A DNA stretch of 64,000 bases from assembly GCA_030062745.1 (NCBI GenBank), contig CP099846.1, forward strand, positions 1,364,001 through 1,428,000, given 5' to 3'. The notes under the pieces were generated by a model. The model had not been told where the DNA came from, searched no databases, and saw only the letters and a program-made list of their open reading frames with translations. Positions 39,601 to 50,555 of the stretch are shown here, one piece after another. How positions within the stretch are numbered: the stretch's first letter is position 1; each line of letters begins with the position of its first letter. The position numbers and the translations under genes are program-made. This DNA comes from Capitulum mitella (lineage: Eukaryota > Arthropoda > Thecostraca > Pollicipedomorpha > Pollicipedidae).

Positions 39601-42600
39601 CGCGGCGGCAGGGACGCGAGGGAGCCGCTCCGTTCTGGGGTGCCAGCCGTGACTCAGCTGGAGACCGGCCAGCCTGGTTCTCGTGTCCGCCCCTGTCGTG
39701 GTAGCCGTGGATGCGGCCCAAGCACCCCAGTGTCGCTGTTGCTGCTTGACAAAGTCTGACGAGGCCGGAACACAGGGAGACGTCCAGAAGATGCAGCAGC
39801 TGTACACCTGGCCTGGCTGTATACCTGGGGTAACAGAAACAACAGATACACGGATCATTGTACGGGCTCAGGCGGTAACCCGAGGCAGATGCGCACACCG
39901 GCCATTGCACAGGTTTAGGCTGTATAACCGGGGCAGGTGTACATCAGGTGCACCGGCCATAGTACAGGTTCAGGGTGTATACCCGAGGCAACAGATGCAG
40001 CAAATACACCGGCCATGGTGCAGGTCCAGGCTGCATACGCGGAGCAACAGATACAATAGGCATACCGGCCATTGTACAGGTTCAAGCTGTTGTACCTTGG
40101 GCAGGTGTGCAACAGTTTTTTCGGCCATTGTGCAGGTCCAGGCAGACGGGCAAGTACACGGAGCGGGACAGGGGTGCAGGTACAAAGGGTAGGCCGTAGG
40201 TGGCTTTACACTGACAGCATAGACAGCAGGGCAGCGGTGCAGGTGCACAGCGGTTACACAAGACATCGTGCAGATGCACAACAGTTACACAGGACATGGT
40301 GCAGGTGCGCAACAGTTGCACAGGACATGGTGCAGGTGCGCATCATTTACACAGGACATGGTGCAGGTGCACAGCATTTACGCAGGACATTGTGCAGGTG
40401 CACAGTATTTGCACAGGACATGGTGCAGGCGCGCAGCAGGCCACGGAACACGGCGTCAGGTACACAGAAGATCCACAGACCAGGCCGCGGGCGCAGTAGA
40501 CGACAGGGCAGAGGCAGGACGGGGAGCGCGTCCGCCACACGCAGCCGGGCAGTCGGCACGGGCTGACGGCGGGCGGAGTCTGCCGTCGGCCGGCCGGTCC
40601 GACGCCGGCCGGCCGATCCGTGCGGCGCCCTGTTACCCGTCGCCAAGGCCGAGCGCGGCCGCGGGCCCCCGCCCGGTATGCCCATTGTTTGTCTGGCCCT
40701 CCGGACCGGTCGGCGGCGTTTTTCGCCGATAGCCGTAAGTGAGCGGGGAGCGTGAGCGGCCCGTGATTAAACACGTCCGCGTGCCGCGTCCCGGCCGCTC
40801 GGGGGCGCCGCGGGGATTGCCGCTGTCGGCTTTGCCGGTCGGCGCCTTTGCCGTCGTCGGGGGTCGGATTCTGGAGACGCACAGCTCGCGGTCCCTCGGA
40901 AGATCTCGACACAAAGCCCGTGGCTGAATCTCCGAGAACATATCTCGCGTGACACGGTGGTTGCTTGTCGGGCCGTGTCGGTGTCCGGATTAGCCGTGTC
41001 GGGCGTGATCGCTGTCGTCGTCCCGTGAACGGTGTGACTTCCAGCCGTCTGACGGGATTCGGGAAGCGGAGGCGTCGGCTCCATGGGGCGCCCACTCCCC
41101 ATGGCCGGGCTCTAAACAAATGGACCTCTTGTCGCCTGTTGTAGTCGCGCGCGGGGGATGCGGAGGTAACAGGCTCGTGGGAGAAGAGCATCGCAATCGT
41201 TCGTACCTGCTTGCGTTTCGCTCGTAATGAATTTTGAAATCCCAAATCTTGATGAATTGTGGAATGAAGTAAAATCAACGGAAAAACCGTCCGGGCGTTT
41301 GCGTAGCTTTCTCCGGCGGACGGGCGGGCGCCGCAGGAGGCCGCAGAGCCGCCCGGTCGGGCGGATTCGTCGCGCGGTTGCCGCCTCAGTCGCCGTAACT
41401 CTGCGCTCTCCAAATCGGCTCGGGCGACTTAGCGTGCCGGCGCTGCAGGGATCAGGCCGGCCGCCGTCCTCAGGAGCTGCGTGATCGTTTAATTAGCGAG
41501 CCCGTCGGTCGCCGGCCGTCTCAGGTTTTCGCTCGGCCGCGTCGGCCGACGGCCTGACGTCTTGACTTGGCGGGGCGAGGCGCTCGGCTGCGAGCTTCAC
41601 ACTCTCTGTGGGGTTTTTGGCTGTGGAGGGTTAGAACCTCATTGCTGGGCACGCGGACTGGGCGGTAACCGCTCTCAGTTTCTCGCGACTGGCAGCGGCC
41701 ACTGCGCTCGGGCCGTTGGTAAATACATCCGAGCTACCTGGTGAAAATGGGCGCGGCAACTGGACCCGCGTGACATACTGACCTGGCTGCTGTTAATATG
41801 GCCACGGTACCTGGGCCTTTGTGACGTCTGTAAATCACTTTGACTGGCAGTGATAGTGGTCGCGGTGACCGGATCCGTGTTACAGTCCTGATTACTTCGT
41901 AATCCGTAGTAACAGTAGAAACAATGACGACCCTCGTGACAGCCGTGGTTTGAAATCTTCAACATTCATGATGCTTTTTGTCTGTGTCGCTTGAGGTTGA
42001 TCTGCGCCCCCAAAAGATATACGTTGAGCGTTTGGCATTGCTGCTGTTTCCCCTGAGTTTTCGCGAGTTGCCGTGCGGTGTGAGAGCCGTCGTGAGCTGT
42101 CTGGAGTAGTTTCCGTGCGGTCCGGACAGGTGGAGGACAAGCAGAGGGCGGCGGCCGCCTGGTCCCGGCTGCTGCTGGCGGCCGACACGCTGGCCGTCCA
42201 GCCGGCCGAGGCCGAGGCGCTCTGGGCCGTGCTGGCCGCCATCTTCCACCTGGGCGCTGCCGGCGTCACCAAAGGTCAGCCGCCCAGCGGGCCGCGGGAA
42301 AATGGTAGCGGTCTGCGCGCTCGGTGTACCAGTTTGTACTGTGCTGTCCGCCTTGCCTGTGTCGTTTCCCATATGCCTGCTCAGCGACTGGTTTAATTGT
42401 CGTCGTATTATTGCAGTCTGTCACTTTGCACTGATTAGGTGGGAATAGTTTAGCGTAGTCGTGTTTTCTCGCCGCGTTTTGCTATTTAAACGTTGTTTAA
42501 AAAGCACATGTTTTTAACTGCCTGCGCCCAGCCGTGACCCGCCGGTCTGCCGCGGCCAGGTCCGTCCGCTGGTGCAGGTCTCCCCACCGTTACTCCCCAC

Positions 42601-45600
42601 TCTGAACCGTGACCCGCCGGTCTGACGCGGCCAGATCTGTAAGGTCCCCCGCTGAACCGTGACCCGCCGGTCTGACGCGGCCAGATCTGTCCGCCTGGTG
42701 CAGGTCTCCCCGCTCCTACTCCCCGCTCTGAACCGTGACCCGCCGGTCTGCGGCGGCCAGATCCGTACCCTGGTGCAGGTCTCCCCACCGTTACTCCCCG
42801 CTCTGAATCGTGACCCGCCGGTCTGACGCGGCCAGATCCGTACCCTGGTGCAGGTCTCCCCACCGTTACTCCCCGCTCTGAACCGTGACGCGCCTCTCCG
42901 CCGCGGCCAGGTCCGTCCGACAAGTACCAGTTCGCGGAGCCGGGCGCCGCGCGCCGCGCCGCCGCCCTGCTCGGCGTGCGGCTGGAGGAGCTGGCGCGCG
43001 CCATCTTCAGCTCGCAGTCGTCGGGCGCGGCCACGCTGGCCCGCTCGGCGTACCGGACCCCGCCGCGGCCGCAGGACGCCGAGCGCGTCGTGGAGGGCCG
43101 GGAGGCGCTGGAGGCGTTCGTGGCCGGCCTGTACGGCGACCTGGTCACCGTGCTGGTCTCGCTGATCAACAGGTCAGAGGGCGACGGGGCCGCGACTGCG
43201 CGGGGTGGAGGGTTAGTGCTGGCGGGCGAGGCAGGGCCACTGGAGATGTAGGCGGGTGGTACTGGTCAGAAAAACGGGAGGTGTTGGTGTTGGAATTGCG
43301 AGACGTTGATCATGAAGGAACGTTTAACAACTGGTTTCAAAGGACAGGGGCCCAGGATGTTCATGTTCAGTTTATTTGTGAATCTTTCCACCGCGTGGAT
43401 TACTGTCTGATTCTAGTCTATACAGTACAGTTTATGCGCAATAGTCATACAAATAAAACTAGAGGATGTTAGTACTGATTTCCGCTTCACGTGTCTGGCA
43501 AGTCCCATGGTGTGACTGCTGAATGTGATGTATTCCGTTTTTACGACGCCCAGTTTTCCCGCCGCTGAGACGAGGTCTCGCCTCCCCGCGGCAGGTCGAT
43601 TTCCAGTCCCGCCCACACGATCAACTCGATCGTCGTGGTGGATTCCCCGGGCTTCCAGAATCCGAGCTCTTGCGGCCGCCAGGGCGGCGCCACCTTCGAC
43701 GAGTTCTGTTTCAACTACGTGCAGGAGCGGCTCCAGCTCCTCTTCCACGAGCAGACGTTCATCAACGAGCGCGACAGATACGCCCAGGTGGGTGGACGGA
43801 GCTTTGTCTTGTTGAAGGGGACAAATGCATCCTGGTGGATGGAGGGAGCTGTAGCATGTGACTGGAGGGGACTGGACTAGGGGAAAAATCTGGAAGCAGT
43901 GCTAATTTGGAGTGGGAAAAACGGTCATGCTAAATCATAGTCAACGATCGCATTCTCACGAAATGTGTATGTGTTGGGCGCAATATTCGGTAGCCTGTAG
44001 CGTAGTATAGGATAGCGTAGCTGTAGTTACGTATAGCCTGTATATAGTGTGTAGTATATAGTCTGAAGTGTATCGTGTAGTAGTCTAATAATAACTTAAG
44101 TCTCCGCCGTGGCCTGGTGATTAAGGAGCTGGACAGCAGGGTTTGGTGTGAGCACACACTGGGTGACAGCAGGGTTTGGTGTGAGCACATACTAGGTGAC
44201 AGCAGGGTCTGGTGTGAGCACACACTGGGTGACAGCAGGGTCTGGTGTGAGCACACACTGGGTGACAGCAGGGTCTGGTGTGAGCACACACTGGGTGACA
44301 GCAGGGTCTGGTGTGAGCACACACTGGGTGACAGCAGGGTCTGGTGTGAGCACACACTGGGTGACAGCAGGGTCTGGTGTGAGCACACACTGGGTGACAG
44401 CAGGGTCTGGTGTGAGCACACACTGGGTGACAGCAGGGTCTGGTGTGAGCAGACACTGGGTTCGAGTCTTAGAACGTGCACATGTATTTGGCCCGATACC
44501 GACCGACAGGGTCGGCCGGTCACGGGGCGGCCGTGTCGTGGAGTTCCACGGCATGATAAAGATCATCCATCGCTATCTGGCTCGGCACCTGGGGAAAATT
44601 ACTCCATGTTTGACAACACCTGGGTGGTAGGGTCTGGGTCCAGCAGTAAGCTCGGCAAAGCACGACCCAGAACACCTGAGTGGTGGGGTCTGGGTCCGGC
44701 AATAAGCTCGACTTAGCATGGACGCAGATACCAACGCCATCCACAACACATTCGGGCTAAGTTTATATATATATAAAAAAGAGTTAACGGTTGGTCCAGT
44801 TTCATGTGCCGCGTGCATTTCACTGGCTCACATTTTATAGCGTGTAAAAAGACGATCTGAAGTGTTTGACGATGCCTTATCCCTTTTAAAAACAAAATGG
44901 CAAGGATCTAGCCGTGCCAGTGTGCTGTCGGTGATGTTTAGGTCGATCCTTGTTCCGGTGGCACCAGACCTCCGCTGACACCCCTCCCTGTCGGCCGCCA
45001 GGAGAACATAGCGCTGAACATGTCGGAGCTGGAGGGCGACGTGTCGACGCCGGCGCCGCTGGTGCTGGCGCTGGACAGGGCGCCGGCCGCCCGGCTGGCG
45101 CGCACCTCGCAGACGGAGCTGCGCGGCGCCGACCGGTGCGGCCTGCTCTGGCTGCTCGACGAGGAGGCGCTGCAGCCGCAGCCCTCCGACGCCGGCTTCC
45201 TGGAGCGCACGTTCGCCATGTACGACTCCAGAGGTGAGCCGAGCCGGACCGCGGCGTCCTGAGCGCTCGGCCGGGGCGGGCGTGCGGCCAGTCGGAGGCA
45301 GGAGCCGTCCAGTGCGCGGGAGCTGGAACTTGCACGCGTGGCTTGACATGGCCGGCTGTCATGCCGAACAGGCGGTGAGGCGGGGCGGCATCGTGCGTTG
45401 TCTGACGGCTTACAGCTCAAGAGTCGGGCCATGTCGACTTCCGTAACCCCCCCCCCGCCGTCAGTCAGCTGACCGTGCCTGCTCGGTGTTCCAGCCGACC
45501 AGCAGGTGCTGGTGAAGGGCCCTGCTGCCGGCCACGTGACGCTGCAGCACTTCCAGGGCACGAACCCGGTGACGTACGACGTGAGCGGCTGGGTGCGGGC

Positions 45601-48600
45601 CGCCCGCGAGTCGCCGGCCGGCCGCACCGCCGCGCCCCTCCTGCTCGAGTCCAACAAGTGAGCGCCACGACGACCGGCCGGCCCGCCCGGTGCCGGTGTG
45701 CGGGGGGGGGGACGTTCACTGCTGTGCGGAGGCGGCCGTTGGTGTTTTCTACTGAGGAGGCCAGACTTGACTGCCTTGGTGTGCTGTTGTGCGAACGATA
45801 AGAAATAGGTCCACTGTTCCGGGTGCTTGGGCTCTGTGGGGTCGATATGCTGTTGGCTGGGACTGGCTCGTCTGGTGATGGTACTCGGGCTCTGTGGGGT
45901 CGATATGCTGTTGGCTGGGACTGGCTCGTCTGGTGGTGGTACTCGGGCTCTGTGGGGCCGATATGCTGTTGGCTGGGACTGGCTCGTCTGGTGATGGTAC
46001 TCGGGCTCTGTGGGGCCGATATGCTGTTGGCTGGGACTGGCTCGTCTGGTGATGGTACTCGGGCTCTGTGGGGTCGATATGCTGTTGGCTGGGACTGGCT
46101 CGTCTGGTGATGGTACTCGGGCTCTGTGGGGTCGATATGCTGTTGGCTGGGACTGGCTCGTCCGGTGGTGTACTCGGGCTCTGTGGGGTCGATATGCTGT
46201 TGGCTGGGACTGGCTCGTCTGGTGATGGTACTCGGGCTCTGTGGGGTCGATATGCTGTTGGCTGGGACTGGCTCGTCTGGTGGTGGGCCGATATGCTGTT
46301 GGCTGGGACTGGCTCGTCTGGTGATGGGCCGATATGCTGTTGGCTGGGACTGGCTCGTCTGGTGATGGGCCGATATGCTGTTGGCTGGGACTGGCTCGTC
46401 TGGTGGTGGGTCGATATGCTGTTGGCTGGGACTGGCTCGTCTGGTGGTGGGTCGATATGCTGTTGGCTGGGACTGGCTCGTCTGGTGGTGGGTCGATATG
46501 CTGTTGGCTGGGACTGGCTCGTCTGGTGGTGGGCCGATATGCTGTTGGCTGGGACTGGCTCGTCTGGTGGTTGTACTTGGAACTCTGCCGCCGCAAACGA
46601 AACCTTTTAAACGGAACCCCCCCCCCCAAAAAAAAAAGAGAACGGGGTGAACATTCTCATATTAGTACAACGATACGGGGCCAATACGTCGTCACACAGG
46701 CTACAAAGATAAAAACCTTACCAAATCACACGTTTCCGGATCGTCGGCACTTCAGATATCGCTTGAGGCTGTGCTGAAAACTGTGACTAGAACAAATTCT
46801 TGTGTCGTGCGGTATAAAATTTTGAATGGAGGGTGCACGGCAGCAAGCACGCCGCTTTTCGGCCCCAGCAGGCGATCGAGCAAACGCAGATCTTCACGCC
46901 AGGCGCTCTTGATCAGCATGTGCCCGTGCAGCCGGATATCGGATCGACTCGGACGGATCTGATCTGATCGAGTCAGACTCCACTGATCGCCGGCAGTGGA
47001 GTATGGTTCGCCATGGTCCAAAGCGCTTTTTAGTAAACACTGTGTTTTTGTTCGGAAAAGTGCTTAGGTGGCAATCAGCCGAGCGTCTCCTTCAGATCCG
47101 TCACATGTCCAGATTTTCGTTGGTCAAAAATTGCTCTTCCGGCAAAACCGAAAATTTTCCGGATTCGAGATGGGTTTTTTTAGTGTCACTACCGTATACC
47201 GAAAAGCGGGAACTGGCCTGAGAGAGGGTCAAGGCTGTCACCACCGAAATCATTGGCCTCTCTGGGACGTATTGTGGTAGAGGCCGGACAAAATACCAAA
47301 GCACCGGCGGTGTAGCTCGCTAACTTGAGTGGGTGCTTGTCGAACATTACGCCTGGATTCTTGGCTTCCGGGCATGGTGAACGGTGGGCATCATTAAATT
47401 GGACGCTGTTGTGTCCTGTTTTCGAAATGGTTTACGGCTCCCGTATACGACCAGCTGGGTCCCGTTGTCGTTAACTTTGAGGGTACAGACACGAAACCGC
47501 TGCTTCAGCGAAGCAAGAGACGCCTCTAGCTTTGCGATCGTGTCTGGGGGCGCAGTCCTGGAAACAGTCACGAACACCTGCATGCCGTTCGCGTACTGAA
47601 AGACGTCTGCCTCCTGTGTGTAAGGCTGAGGTCTGAGAAGACGATAAATAGTTTGGGGCCCAGCCAGGAGCCTTGAAATACATCGATGCTGTAGTTATGA
47701 TCCAGAGGTTTCATAGTTAGTTAGTTTTTTAGTTAAAACATAAAAAATTGTGTGTGGCCAGATCCAGAGGTTTCATAGTTAGTTAGTTTATTAGTTAAAA
47801 CATAAAAAACTGGGTGTGGCCAGACACATAAGAGCTGAACCAAGAATTAATACCGTACTAATGAAGTCTTTGAAGCACAGTGCCGTGATCGATAAACCTC
47901 AAAACATTTATTGAGGACAGTTAGGCAAAGAGGAGATGTCGCACCGGTCCAGTACATTCTCATTGTGTGTCCACATCACCATCAGTGTTAGCTTGTGATT
48001 CCTAGTCGTGCTGTGCGTTGTGCGTCCTCAGGGAGCTGGTGTGGGTGTCTGAGGCGGGTCACTGACAGATCTGTCACATGAGGGAGAAGGAGCCGGTGTG
48101 GGTGTCTGGCCGGCCACTGACCGACCCTCCGTCACCCCAGGGAGCCGGTGTGGGTGTCTGGCCGTTCACTGACCGACCCTCCGTTACCCCAGGGAGCCGG
48201 TGTGGGTGTCTGGCCGGCCACTGACCGACCCTCCGTTACCTCAGAGAGCCGGTGTGGGTGTCTGGCCGGCCACTGACCGACCCTCCGTTACCCCAGGGAG
48301 CCGGTGTGGGTGTCTGGCCGGCCACTGACCGACCCTCCGTTACCCCAGGGAGCCGGTGTGGGTGTCTGGCCGGCCACTGACCGACCCTCCGTTACCCCAG
48401 GGAGCCGGTGTGGGTGTCTGGCCGGCCACTGACCGACCCTCCGTTACCCCAGGGAGCCGGTGTGGGTGTCTGGCCGGCCACTGACCGACCCTCCGTTACC
48501 TCAGAGAGCTGGTGTGGGTGTCTGGCCGGCCACTGACCGACCCTCCGTTACCCCAGGGAGCTGGTGTGGGTGTCTGGCCGGCCACTGACCGACCCTCCGT

Positions 48601-50555
48601 TACCTCAGGGAGCTGGTGTGGGTGTCTGGCCGGCCACTGACCGACCCTCCGTTACCCCAGGGAGCCGGTGTGGGTGTCTGGCCGGCCACTGACCGACCCT
48701 CCGTTACCCCAGGGAGCCGGTGTGGGTGTCTGGCCGGCCACTGACCGACCCTCCGTTACCCCAGGGAGCCGGTGTGGGTGTCTGGCCGGCCACTGACCTA
48801 CCCTCCGTTACCCCAGGGAGCCGGTGTGGGTGTCTGGCCGGCCACTGACCGACCCTCCGTTACCCCAGGGAGCCGGTGTGGGTGTCTGGCCGGCCACTGA
48901 CCGACCCTCCGTTACCCCAGGGAGCCGGTGTGGGTGTCTGGCCGGCCACTGACCGACCCTCCGTTACCCCAGGGAGCCGGTGTGGGTGTCTGGCCGGCCA
49001 CTGACCGACCCTCCGTTACCCCAGGGAGCCGGTGTGGGTGTCTGGCCGGCCACTGACCGACCCTCCGTTACCCCAGGGAGCCGGTGTGGGTGTCTGGCCG
49101 GCCACTGACCGACCCTCCGTTACCCCAGGGAGCCGTTGTGGGTGTCTGGCCGGCCACTGACCGACCCTCCGTTACCCCAGAGGAGCCGGTGTGGGTGTCT
49201 GGCCGGCCACTGACCTGACTCTCCGTTACCCCAGGGAGCCGGTGTGGGTGTCTGGCCGGCCACTGACCGACCCTCCGTTACCCCAGGGAGCCGTTGTGGG
49301 TGTCTGCCTGGCCACTGACCGACCCTCCGTTACCCCAGGGAGCCGTTGTGGGTGTCTGGCCGGCCACTGACCGACCCTCCGTTACCCCAGGGAGCCGGTG
49401 AGTCGGCTGTTCCTGGCGGCCCGCGGCGCCGGTGTGGGCGTCTCCGGCGGCTCTGTGGTCGGCATTGACGGCTCGCTGTCGCTGCGGCGCGCCTCCAGCA
49501 TCCGGCGGACGTTCACCAGCGGCGCGGCCGGCATCAAACGCAACAGCCGCGCCCTGCTGGTCAAGTTCCAGCTGGTGAGCCGCCGCCCACCGCCCGGCAT
49601 TGATGGTGGACCGCCTGATGGGCGGTTTTACGTTGTTGACGGAAACGGAATGTTCTTCATTCGTATTTTGTGTGGCCTGGTTATTAATGACTGGAAGGGA
49701 TTGGTCAGAGTGTTCTTTAAAGACATCTGCGAAATCCTTGGCGTTCGTGTGACTGATACACCTTTTTGATCTGTGCTGGCCGTTGCCTTCGGTAGATGGT
49801 CAGCGTCCTGCGCAGTGTGAGGGTGCCGTGTGACCCCGGTTTGGTGACGCCGTAAAGGCCCATCAGCTGACAGCTGTCCGATCTGCGCCTGCAGGACGGT
49901 ATCGTGGAGCAGCTGCGGCGCACGCGGCCCCGGTTCGTCCACTGCCTGCTGCCGCAGCACAACGCCGGCCTCTGCGAGCTGCGGACGGCGGCCGCTCCGC
50001 CCAAGACCAGCACGCCGGAGGAGATCATCATCAACGTGCCGCTGCTGCGCTCCCAGGTCCGTGGGCCGGCCGCAGTCCGGCAGGCTGGGGCGGAGGGACT
50101 CTGGCCGGCAGCCTGGAGAGAAGCCGGCGTTCACGCCAGGTTGTTTGCCTGTTGGGTTTCGTTACCGAAAGGCGGAAGTAGCCTGGGACTTGGACGATGG
50201 AGAACCGACGCGCTGCGCTACCCAGAGCGGCGCTGCCGTGCTTGCCGTGTCCATCTGACCGGTGGCTGCTTTTTTCCGTGCTGTGCCGTGTCGTGCCGTG
50301 CCGTGTTCACGCCTGACCGGCGGTCGCTCTGTGCGTTTCCAGCTGCGCGGCGCCCAGCTGCTGGACGCGCTGCGGCTTCACAAGCAGGGCTACCCGGAGC
50401 ACATGCCGTTCGCCGAGTTCCGGCGTCGGTTCGCGCTGCTGGCGCCGGACGCCGCCGCCGGGGAGGATGCGGCCGGCGACGAGCGGGCCGCCGTGGACCA
50501 GCTGCTGCTGCAGCTCGACCTCGACACCGTCTCCTACCGACTGGGCCTCAGCCAG
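24388..50555 (+). CDS. Myo18: Class XVIII unconventional myosin, motor domain (13 exons, incomplete at both ends)
   Basis: Joining 24388-24609, 25181-25357, 37771-37996, 38457-38599, 39050-39211, 42130-42274, 42911-43172, 43595-43787, 45002-45233, 45495-45657, 49391-49574, 49895-50056 and 50343-50555 gives an uninterrupted 828-residue frame. Order: SH3-like subdomain (residues about 15-74), P-loop GRSGSGKTT (174-182), switch I NTNATRF (230-236), switch II DSPGFQ (462-467), an actin-interface segment FVHCLLP in exon 12, and an SH1/converter region (758-828). Switch II departs from the conventional DIxGFE in the same way as known Myo18 proteins (DTPGFQ), which bind actin but have little or no ATPase activity. 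The family acts as an actin cross-linker or anchor with non-muscle myosin II and in muscle and Golgi-linked complexes. The N-terminal extension, converter end, IQ motif and coiled-coil tail are not seen here. Intron 2 is 12.4 kb. Confidence 0.93.
25181..25357 (+). CDS. Myo18: Myo18 exon 2: start of motor head
   Basis: Acceptor CCCGCAG, donor GTGAGC; 177 nt, phase 0, 59 residues. It contains [20 protein letters not shown], the conserved head segment that couples the N-terminal subdomain to the motor. It ends IYSDK, which continues directly into exon 3 despite the 12.4-kb intron between them. Confidence 0.95.
31360..31975. repeat. Minisatellite with 23-bp units passing into 33-bp units
   Basis: The left part (about 31370-31560) consists of diverged 23-bp units of the type GCCGCCTGTAAAGCAGACCT plus GGG. 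The right part has mainly 33-bp units: the same 23-mer plus GCCGGTCGGG. Because 33 is a multiple of three, a minus-strand frame rich in [11 protein letters not shown] repeats stays open for over 200 residues; it is not a gene. Confidence 0.95.
32519..32886. repeat. 62-bp minisatellite, six copies
   Basis: Unit begins GGCGGCCGACGCCGCCAGGT and ends with GAGGGTCTGCTCTGCTGGCC. Copies are nearly identical. It lies within Myo18 intron 2. Confidence 0.95.
33030..33160. repeat. CA-rich simple sequence
   Basis: Irregular CACACA/GACACA words with CCGACACA repeats; a pure TG run of about 16 bases follows at 33356-33372. Confidence 0.75.
37771..37996 (+). CDS. Myo18: Myo18 exon 3: P-loop exon
   Basis: Acceptor CCCGGCAG, donor GTACGG; 226 nt, ends in phase 1. 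It contains [10 protein letters not shown] and the Walker A/P-loop GRSGSGKTT at 37891-37917; family members have GxSGSGKTT where conventional myosins have GESGAGKT. The exon ends in an Ala-rich tract ([11 protein letters not shown]) encoded by a GCG-rich run, longer than expected for the loop at this place. Confidence 0.96.
38457..38599 (+). CDS. Myo18: Myo18 exon 4: switch I exon
   Basis: Acceptor CGACAG, donor GTCAGT; 143 nt, entering with one base carried from exon 3. It encodes [16 protein letters not shown], then switch I NTNATRF, then [19 protein letters not shown] in place of the usual NSSRFG is the Myo18 form. Confidence 0.95.
39050..39211 (+). CDS. Myo18: Myo18 exon 5
   Basis: Acceptor GTCGCCAG, donor GTACGT; 162 nt, phase 0, 54 residues. 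Contains [20 protein letters not shown] and YQLLAGAE, matching the segment LLEKxRVxRRPxxExxFNVFYxLL of the family. Confidence 0.93.
39880..40200. repeat. Degenerate repeat with CCGGCCATTGTACAGGT landmarks
   Basis: The landmark (with changes) recurs near 39900, 39953, 40008, 40067 and 40122, spacing about 53-59 bp. The units are heavily diverged. Confidence 0.7.
40244..40443. repeat. 31-bp minisatellite, about six copies
   Basis: Unit AGGACATGGTGCAGGTGCGC plus 11 bases; exact 31-bp spacing is visible at 40291, 40322 and 40353. Confidence 0.92.
42130..42274 (+). CDS. Myo18: Myo18 exon 6
   Basis: Acceptor CCGGACAG, donor GTCAGC; 145 nt, ends in phase 1. Encodes [14 protein letters not shown] and [19 protein letters not shown]; the latter matches the motor helix ...CWFILAAIYHLGAAGATK of vertebrate Myo18A. 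Confidence 0.95.
42534..42910. repeat. 75-bp minisatellite ending exactly at the exon 7 splice acceptor
   Basis: The landmark GTGACCCGCCGGTCTG recurs at 42534, 42609, 42659, 42735 and 42810, and as GTGACGCG at 42885. Spacings are 75, 50, 76, 75 and 75 bp. Each unit carries GCGGCCAG followed by a version of GTCCGTCC or ATCCGTAC. The last, partial unit supplies the true acceptor GCGGCCAG used by exon 7 at 42911. Confidence 0.93.
42911..43172 (+). CDS. Myo18: Myo18 exon 7
   Basis: Acceptor GCGGCCAG, donor GTCAGA; 262 nt, phase 1 in and 2 out. Encodes [31 protein letters not shown], and [16 protein letters not shown], matching the family segment before switch II. The first bases of the exon are shared with the upstream 75-bp repeat unit. 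Confidence 0.94.
43595..43787 (+). CDS. Myo18: Myo18 exon 8: switch II exon
   Basis: Acceptor GCGGCAG, donor GTGGGT; 193 nt, joins in phase 2 and ends in phase 0. It encodes [15 protein letters not shown], i.e. switch II DSPGFQ, then the relay helix [20 protein letters not shown]. The Pro after Ser and the Gln in place of the switch II Glu are class XVIII features expected to impair ATP hydrolysis. Confidence 0.96.
44110..44469 (+). mobile_element. tRNA-like SINE head, A and B boxes split by a minisatellite
   Basis: TGGCCTGGTGATTAAGG at 44110-44126 fits the RNA polymerase III A box/D-arm of tRNA-derived SINEs. GGTTCGAGTCT at 44459-44469 fits the B box. In a normal head they lie some 30-50 bp apart; here ten 33-bp units separate them. 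Removing nine units restores normal spacing. The downstream SINE body is not delimited. Confidence 0.5.
44132..44461. repeat. 33-bp minisatellite, ten copies
   Basis: Unit GACAGCAGGGTCTGGTGTGA plus GCACACACTGGGT. Exact 33-bp steps from 44132. The unit length is a multiple of three and lacks stops in most frames, so both strands show 11-residue repeat frames that are not genes. Confidence 0.97.
44615..44725. repeat. 56-bp direct duplication
   Basis: Two diverged copies beginning AACACCTGGGTGGTAGGGTC (44615) and AACACCTGAGTGGTGGGGTC (44671). Confidence 0.85.
45002..45233 (+). CDS. Myo18: Myo18 exon 9
   Basis: Acceptor CGCCAG, donor GTGAGC; 232 nt, phase 0 in and 1 out. Encodes [11 protein letters not shown], then [20 protein letters not shown] and [20 protein letters not shown]. 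The motif [11 protein letters not shown] is diagnostic for class XVIII at the loop after the relay. Confidence 0.96.
45495..45657 (+). CDS. Myo18: Myo18 exon 10
   Basis: Acceptor GTTCCAG, donor GTGAGC; 163 nt, phase 1 in and 2 out. Encodes [20 protein letters not shown], matching the conserved HxxGTNxVxYxVxGW segment of the lower 50-kDa domain. Confidence 0.95.
45829..46575. repeat. Minisatellite with 58-bp units passing into 41-bp units
   Basis: Eight units of about 58 bp (landmark GGGCTCTGTGGGGTCGATAT, at 45829, 45887, 45945, 46003, 46061, 46119, 46176, 46234). About seven 41-bp units follow that lack the 17-bp TACTCGGGCTCTGTGGG part. Confidence 0.95.
47100..47690 (-). pseudogene. Decayed LINE (non-LTR) reverse transcriptase fragment
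   Basis: Minus strand, broken by frameshifts. From 47681 downward it reads [15 protein letters not shown], matching the RT signature GVPQGSxLGPxLFxxF. In another frame comes [12 protein letters not shown], where the catalytic YADD box has become YANG. Then [22 protein letters not shown] near 47350, and [11 protein letters not shown] with SVYGS near 47220. This order fits Jockey/CR1-like LINEs. The loss of both catalytic aspartates and the frameshifts show it is inactive. Confidence 0.7.
47699..47822. repeat. 62-bp direct duplication
   Basis: Two near-identical AT-rich copies starting GATCCAGAGGTTTCATAGTT at 47699 and 47761, next to the 5' side of the dead LINE. Confidence 0.95.
48030..49390. 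repeat. 52-bp minisatellite, about 25 copies, ending at the exon 11 splice acceptor
   Basis: Unit GGAGCCGGTGTGGGTGTCTG, GCCGGCCACTGACCGACC, CTCCGTTACCCCAG, 52 bp. Every unit contains a pyrimidine-rich run and CCCCAG|GGAGCCGGTG, the same sequence as the real intron 10/exon 11 junction at 49390/49391. The last junction is the one that continues into coding sequence. Copies are very similar, with occasional changes (GAGCTGG, CTCAGAG). Confidence 0.97.
49391..49574 (+). CDS. Myo18: Myo18 exon 11
   Basis: Acceptor TTACCCCAG, donor GTGAGC; 184 nt, phase 2 in and 0 out. Encodes [20 protein letters not shown] and [20 protein letters not shown], matching the family LALRRATSMRKTFTTGMA segment. The first ten bases are shared with each unit of the upstream 52-bp array. 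Confidence 0.95.
49895..50056 (+). CDS. Myo18: Myo18 exon 12: actin-interface segment
   Basis: Acceptor GCCTGCAG, donor GTCCGT (weak); 162 nt, phase 0. Encodes [20 protein letters not shown], then a variable loop, then [13 protein letters not shown]. It matches the strut region FVHCFLP...LDVPLLRTQ. Confidence 0.95.
50343..50555 (+). CDS. Myo18: Myo18 exon 13: SH1/converter start
   Basis: Acceptor GTTTCCAG, donor GTCAGT; 213 nt, phase 0. Encodes [34 protein letters not shown] and ends LGLSQ. In the family the next exon should begin with V/I-F-F-R-A-G; no such sequence was found in the following 13.4 kb. Confidence 0.95.

Follow-up and report, generated by a model that had tools for sequence, protein, structure and literature searches.

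An intron of a myosin gene in this arthropod genome carries a minisatellite of about 25 units of 52 bp, and the repeated unit spans the very intron/exon junction at which the array ends. Judged from its sequence, the array has the anatomy of a "mirage", the name given in a study of amphioxus to intron/exon boundaries duplicated in tandem in the manner of a minisatellite (PMC3087553). We consider it likely that the array is a minisatellite of this kind, one that arose by tandem duplication across the junction, expanded and was homogenized, and that the exon-proximal acceptor is chosen by exon definition. Arrays built from copied junctions recur at three other exon edges, one in the same gene and two in other myosin genes.

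Gene Context of the Array

The window, i.e., the whole 64-kb stretch of DNA that was analyzed (G000:C8:1364001-1428000), has a GC content of 62%, and 11 exons of the gene were mapped in it. Exon numbers are those of a preliminary description of this DNA. We take the gene to be Myo18, as named in that description, since the unusual P-loop GRSGSGKT and its neighboring sequence agree with that assignment. No second Myo18 copy was seen in the genome: of 12 matches, nine belong to this gene and the remaining three, elsewhere, are weaker (37-50% identity). Coordinates of the array, the exons on either side of it, and the related features are given in Table 1.

Table 1. Positions of the junction-bearing arrays and associated features. 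Positions without a locus prefix are those of the window; a slash marks an exon edge.
Feature	Position	Strand	Description
Upstream exon (exon 10 in the preliminary description)	45495..45657	+	donor GTGAGC at 45658, AACAA/GTGAGC
Acceptor-locked minisatellite	48031..49400	+	~25 units, 52 bp each
Leftmost unit, most degenerate	48031..48088	+	58 bp; closest unit to exon interior
Exon behind array (exon 11 in the preliminary description), motor domain	49391..49574	+	in-frame join
Exon-interior segment related to unit	49425..49453	+	score 30; 23/29 to leftmost unit
Second acceptor-locked array, same gene	42532..42916	+	main unit 75 bp; TRF periods 50, 75, 126
Exon behind second array	42911..43172	+	in-frame join
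Myosin V donor array	L035:7317-7713 (G000:C2:10677001-10687000)		exon end + donor repeated into intron
Third-myosin donor array	L037:8870-9121 (G000:C14:5776001-5786000)		79-bp unit = ~38 nt exon end + donor

The acceptor at 49391 reads CCCCAG/GGAGCCGGTG, and the first 10 nt of the exon form the final partial unit of the array. Splicing from 45657 to 49391 keeps the frame (..LLLESNK/EPVSRLF..), and the joined protein aligns with myosin II across this junction (best PDB match E 8.6e-10). The Pfam family Myosin_head also matches the spliced protein (E 3.1e-39), its best stretch (residues 247-526) spanning the array junction, and it also matches exons of the gene on that strand, in one search above the cut-off and in another below it (30.5 of 33.3 bits). 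Alignment across the junction required the longer spliced protein. A 66-residue piece around it matched no Pfam family, and with the protein of exons 11-13 alone, the best PDB match had an E of 0.025, missing the 0.001 threshold, and its alignment started only at residue 45. Seven nucleotides past the real acceptor (49391-49403), the exon contains CCG/GTGAGT, a strong donor-like motif at which a 7-nt exon or a re-splicing site is conceivable.

Anatomy and Uniqueness of the Array

TRF called the array at 48089-49400 (period 52, 25.2 copies, 97% match), and the array ends 10 nt into the exon, which confirms the preliminary account of roughly 25 units of 52 bp tied to the real acceptor. Each unit consists of 42 nt from the end of the intron and 10 nt from the start of the exon, and it contains a branch-point-like CTGAC, a pyrimidine stretch, CAG, and ~10 nt of exon-like sequence. 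Tandem units that span a boundary, as these do, are one hallmark of mirages. A second is retention of the splice signal: among 23 aligned units (four of the 27 sites were omitted as degenerate or shifted), 10 of the 52 positions vary and the AG is invariant. A third is the combination of a homogenized inside with a diverged edge, and here the inner units are mostly identical and the leftmost ones degenerate.

It had also been claimed that all units carry CCCCAG/GGAGCCGGTG. This was an overstatement, as there are 17 exact copies in the array, with the real junction included, and other units carry CCTCAG, GAGAGC, GCTGG or GCCGTTG variants. Upstream of 49391, there are 26 AG sites with a copy of the exon start behind them, and 12 of these sites show no difference from the real one in the 50 nt from -40 to +10. 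Folding of two array units as single-stranded DNA gave a stability that is not unusual (z -0.04).

An exact scan of the 477-Mb genome (16 contigs) for the 16-nt junction returned 17 matches, all inside the array, and a 301-bp piece of the array searched against the genome had all of its seven matches there as well (this search skips very common words). The 52-bp unit, unmatched elsewhere in the genome, is therefore not a dispersed element, and we rejected an origin from a dispersed repeat, an introner-like element or a transposon.

Such arrays are prone to misjudged copy number, and one amphioxus mirage is described as aberrantly assembled in a genome draft (PMC3087553), so the repeat could in principle have been collapsed or inflated during assembly. 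However, its units show ordered private variants and a 2-nt insertion, and several arrays of the same architecture stand at other junctions; we regard an assembly artefact as extremely unlikely.

The history that we infer for a mirage-type array would begin with a tandem duplication of a segment made up of ~42 nt of intron end, with its branch point, pyrimidine tract and AG, and 10 nt of exon start. This segment would have been expanded to ~25 copies by slippage or unequal exchange, the inner copies being homogenized and the left edge decaying, and the true acceptor would persist as the copy that runs on into the full exon.

Decoy Acceptors and the Choice of Splice Site

In the pre-mRNA, the copies would present a row of near-identical 3' splice sites, from which exon definition would select the exon-proximal one. 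Local signals are nearly alike in the decoys and the real site, and only the last site precedes the full exon with its donor. The exon-proximal acceptor is the one most likely used, because the intron holding the array is 3.7 kb long, the exon behind it is 184 nt, and the donor lies nearest across that exon. A preference for the sites closest across the exon where flanking introns are large is described in PMC9225289.

The ladder of decoy acceptors that had been proposed for this intron is borne out by the 26 upstream AG sites, which are non-productive on paper. From every one of them, reading meets a stop after 9-46 codons, even where the distance to the real site is divisible by three. The early stop had been predicted correctly on the grounds that 52 is not a multiple of three, but this is only part of the reason: the frame is restored with each third unit (156 nt), and what halts reading is a TGA that the unit has in one of its three frames. 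Since decoy use gives an early stop, the decoys would add nothing to the protein and selection would hold the last site. Selection would in turn tolerate the array because the last acceptor wins. The copies are thus probably spliced around and not used, and a neutral, self-expanding by-product is the simplest account of them.

RNA folding in 240-nt windows, covering the real site and 24 of the 26 upstream sites, gave mixed evidence. The AG dinucleotide of the real site (predicted unpaired 0.65) is less open than that of 18 of the 24 decoys and more open than that of the other six, which include the four closest to the exon. In the wider interval -20..+3, 23 of the 24 decoys are predicted to be less open than the real site (0.51). 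RNA structure could favor the real site on this modeling.

The predicted openness of the AG in those 18 decoys would also suit a functional role of the decoys, in which acceptor choice diverts some transcripts to stop-containing mRNAs and array length tunes the output of the gene. The early stops from all 26 upstream acceptors, 12 of them matching the real site over 50 nt, fit such a role too. Nevertheless, it appears very unlikely: exon definition favors the last site (PMC9225289), which is also the more open one over the wider interval in all comparisons except one, and amphioxus mirages are reported to leave splicing undisturbed (PMC3087553).

Probable Relationship between the Unit and the Exon Interior

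The preliminary description went further and derived the unit from the exon itself. GCCGGTG does occur twice in exon 11, at 49394 and 49428, and the second copy is followed by TGGGCGTCTCCGGCGG as described; the spacing is 34 bp, not the ~30 bp given. Joining the exon across the two copies yields a 26-mer, which aligns with the 25-mer of that description, said to be almost exactly alike, with 22 matches, three mismatches and one gap.

A broader comparison gave a local alignment score of 30 between the unit and GGCGCCGGTGTGGGCGTCTCCGGC, which starts at 49425 in the exon. None of 2000 dinucleotide shuffles of the exon reached this score (maximum 27), nor did any of 714 tiles of the window. The leftmost unit and the exon interior are identical at 23 of 29 positions without gaps. 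Taken after its GCTGGTG, the leftmost unit agrees with the 23 nt after the exon GCCGGTG at 17 positions, which is the top value among plus-strand window positions outside the array (the runner-up has 15). The inner consensus unit set at the GCCGGTG anchor reaches 13/23 ungapped, and background places reach up to 16. The exon interior and the array are thus likely related, and the most exon-like unit is the one at the old edge, which leans toward the exon as the donor.

To explain why the array is locked to the acceptor, a plain tandem duplication that takes in 10 nt of exon along with the intron end is enough, with no deletion at all. Such a duplication does not require the match between the unit and the exon interior, a match that suggests a seed of greater complexity. 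In the seed suggested by the preliminary description, the 5' end of the exon lost the 34 bp between the GCCGGTG copies through microhomology, was joined to the intron end, and was amplified. What holds of this suggestion is that the exon interior is related to the array; the microhomology deletion and the exon-to-array direction are putative steps. We hold this model tentatively, as a plausible account that falls somewhat short of an even chance. It is favored by the alignment score that none of the shuffles or tiles equaled, by the exon-like leftmost unit with its top plus-strand match, and by the composition of the 52 bp as 26 from the intron and 26 exon-derived (a hand count). Against it, the consensus unit matches at the anchor no better than background does elsewhere, and a single genome gives no direction of copying. 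The exon-interior segment, moreover, lies in loop 2, a variable region of the motor, and may be old or recent.

The same similarity would arise if copying had run the other way, i.e., if the exon interior had acquired a piece of an array unit by conversion or by insertion into loop 2. The segment lies within a stretch of length differences in the alignment to myosin II, as such an acquisition would have it, but without gaps the homogenized inner units match it less well than the decayed edge unit does, and we consider this direction unlikely.

Junction-Bearing Arrays at Other Exon Edges

Four junction-bearing arrays were found in three of the five myosin loci examined, each locus being covered in part. 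The 52-bp array was given at the outset, and the other three were unselected. The second array of the same gene ends 6 nt inside the exon starting at 42911, and its leftmost copy has a 20-nt run across the junction in common with the real site. It carries five decoy GGCCAG acceptors, all of which lead to a stop within 2-17 codons.

The other two arrays copy donors. In the myosin V gene, copies of the exon end GGATACCCGTCCAG/GTGGGC continue into the intron, making 13 CAG/GTG donors with the real one included. This exon end encodes AAGYPSR, and since it matches AAGFPSR of solved myosin Va, the exon is older than the array. Two of the decoy donors in this array, at +45 and +90 nt, keep the frame; their use would lengthen the protein by 15 or 30 residues, with YPSR once more at the end. 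In the third myosin, the real donor, placed from the open frame 24 nt beyond where the profile match stops, is GTGAGG, and the two copies downstream of it have GCGAGG. No junction arrays were seen in two further myosin stretches, L036 (six exon hits) and L038 (five exon hits).

Two other arrays only abut an acceptor and were rejected as mirages. One is an 80-bp array (L009:5224-5467) that ends 12 bp upstream of the acceptor of an exon farther along the reported gene and whose unit does not contain the junction. The other is a degenerate 19-bp array (L038:4388-4452), next to a minus-strand acceptor, that repeats CTGAC branch-point-like motifs.

Within Myo18, the overlap of arrays with exon edges has a P of 0.007 or 0.05, depending on the overlap allowed (exact placement counts, made post hoc and with some exon edges approximate). 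Enrichment was counted over arrays with a period of at least 20 and at least three copies in stretches with mapped exons. Three of 10 unselected arrays are locked to a junction, which has a P of 0.003 at a 3% chance each and 0.04 at 8%, both chances coming from exact placement in Myo18 and being assumed for the other genes. Once 10 arrays in poorly mapped parts (four at 50.6-64 kb of the window and six in L009) and one 19-bp array in L038 are added as unlocked, the count becomes 3/21 and P rises to 0.024 and 0.23, respectively. Pfam searches of the window returned no family for the plus-strand parts 1-10, 13-23, 26-36, and 54-64 kb or for the minus strand of the last of these parts, and arrays there could therefore not be placed against exons. 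A preference of arrays for junctions is only suggested by this small sample from one protein family; that the junction itself is copied can be read directly from the sequence.

The window holds 34 merged arrays (period of at least 10) that make up 13.4% of its bases, vs. 3.4% in 200 kb sampled elsewhere at fixed points, a sample that served for repeat density only. In one intron array (45822-46571), the unit length changes from 58 to 41 bp. Elsewhere in the genome, a single stretch of the myosin profile (377-439) is matched four times within 3.4 kb (G000:C16:5450234-5453643), and similar sets occur on C15 and C14. These sets resemble the mutually exclusive exons of arthropod muscle myosin. The genome also contains at least 150 Chitin_bind_4 cuticle domains (150 of 627 candidates were scored), which together with the repeated alternative exons of its myosin loci identify it as that of an arthropod.

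Comparison with Known Systems

In amphioxus, mirages are described in Adh3, the globins BflGb6 and BflGb9, TnC, and PGBD5 (PMC3087553, PMC3902484). Like them, the arrays found here copy boundaries at both acceptors and donors, many units keep intact splice signals, and inner copies are homogenized and edge copies diverged (PMC3087553, PMC3902484). The 52-bp array differs in its arthropod host, its unit length, its 25 copies, and the resemblance of its unit to the exon interior, and it is known here from one assembly. No arthropod mirage appeared in the literature searched, judged by title or the start of the abstract, and within that literature the arthropod host is new.

Splice-site-bearing minisatellites of other kinds are also known. 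The minisatellite of human IFI6 (6-16) reportedly gives multiple splice donors, i.e., it acts on the donor side, in contrast to the acceptor side in the 52-bp array. Human internal tandem repeats, as described in PMC2812944, include boundary minisatellites that alter splicing or form introns, but they are found in recent segmental-duplication paralogs and half of them lie within coding exons. Polyubiquitin UBC shares with the 52-bp array a tandem arrangement with a splice site in each unit, whereas its repeats are coding and its AGGT serves as donor or acceptor (PMC10809524). We rejected such a dual-specific array for the 52-bp repeat, which is intronic and reads AG/GGAG or AG/AGAG at its unit boundaries; the myosin V array does carry AG/GT. 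An account of intronic minisatellites in C. elegans has no bearing on junction copies (PMC4039745).

Implications

It is possible, though rather doubtful, that this genome habitually makes junction-seeded minisatellites at acceptors and donors, with junctions as preferred birthplaces of arrays and some arrays, such as that of myosin V with its two in-frame decoy donors, as candidate sources of exons or introns. A route from mirages to intron gain has been proposed in one amphioxus paper. Four such arrays of both boundary kinds in a few arthropod myosin genes suggest that the underlying process is wider than amphioxus. They are also natural test pieces, in which near-identical splice sites stand in a row and differ mainly in exon context and position, so that the choice of the spliceosome between the first and the last of 25 near-equal acceptors becomes directly addressable by experiment.
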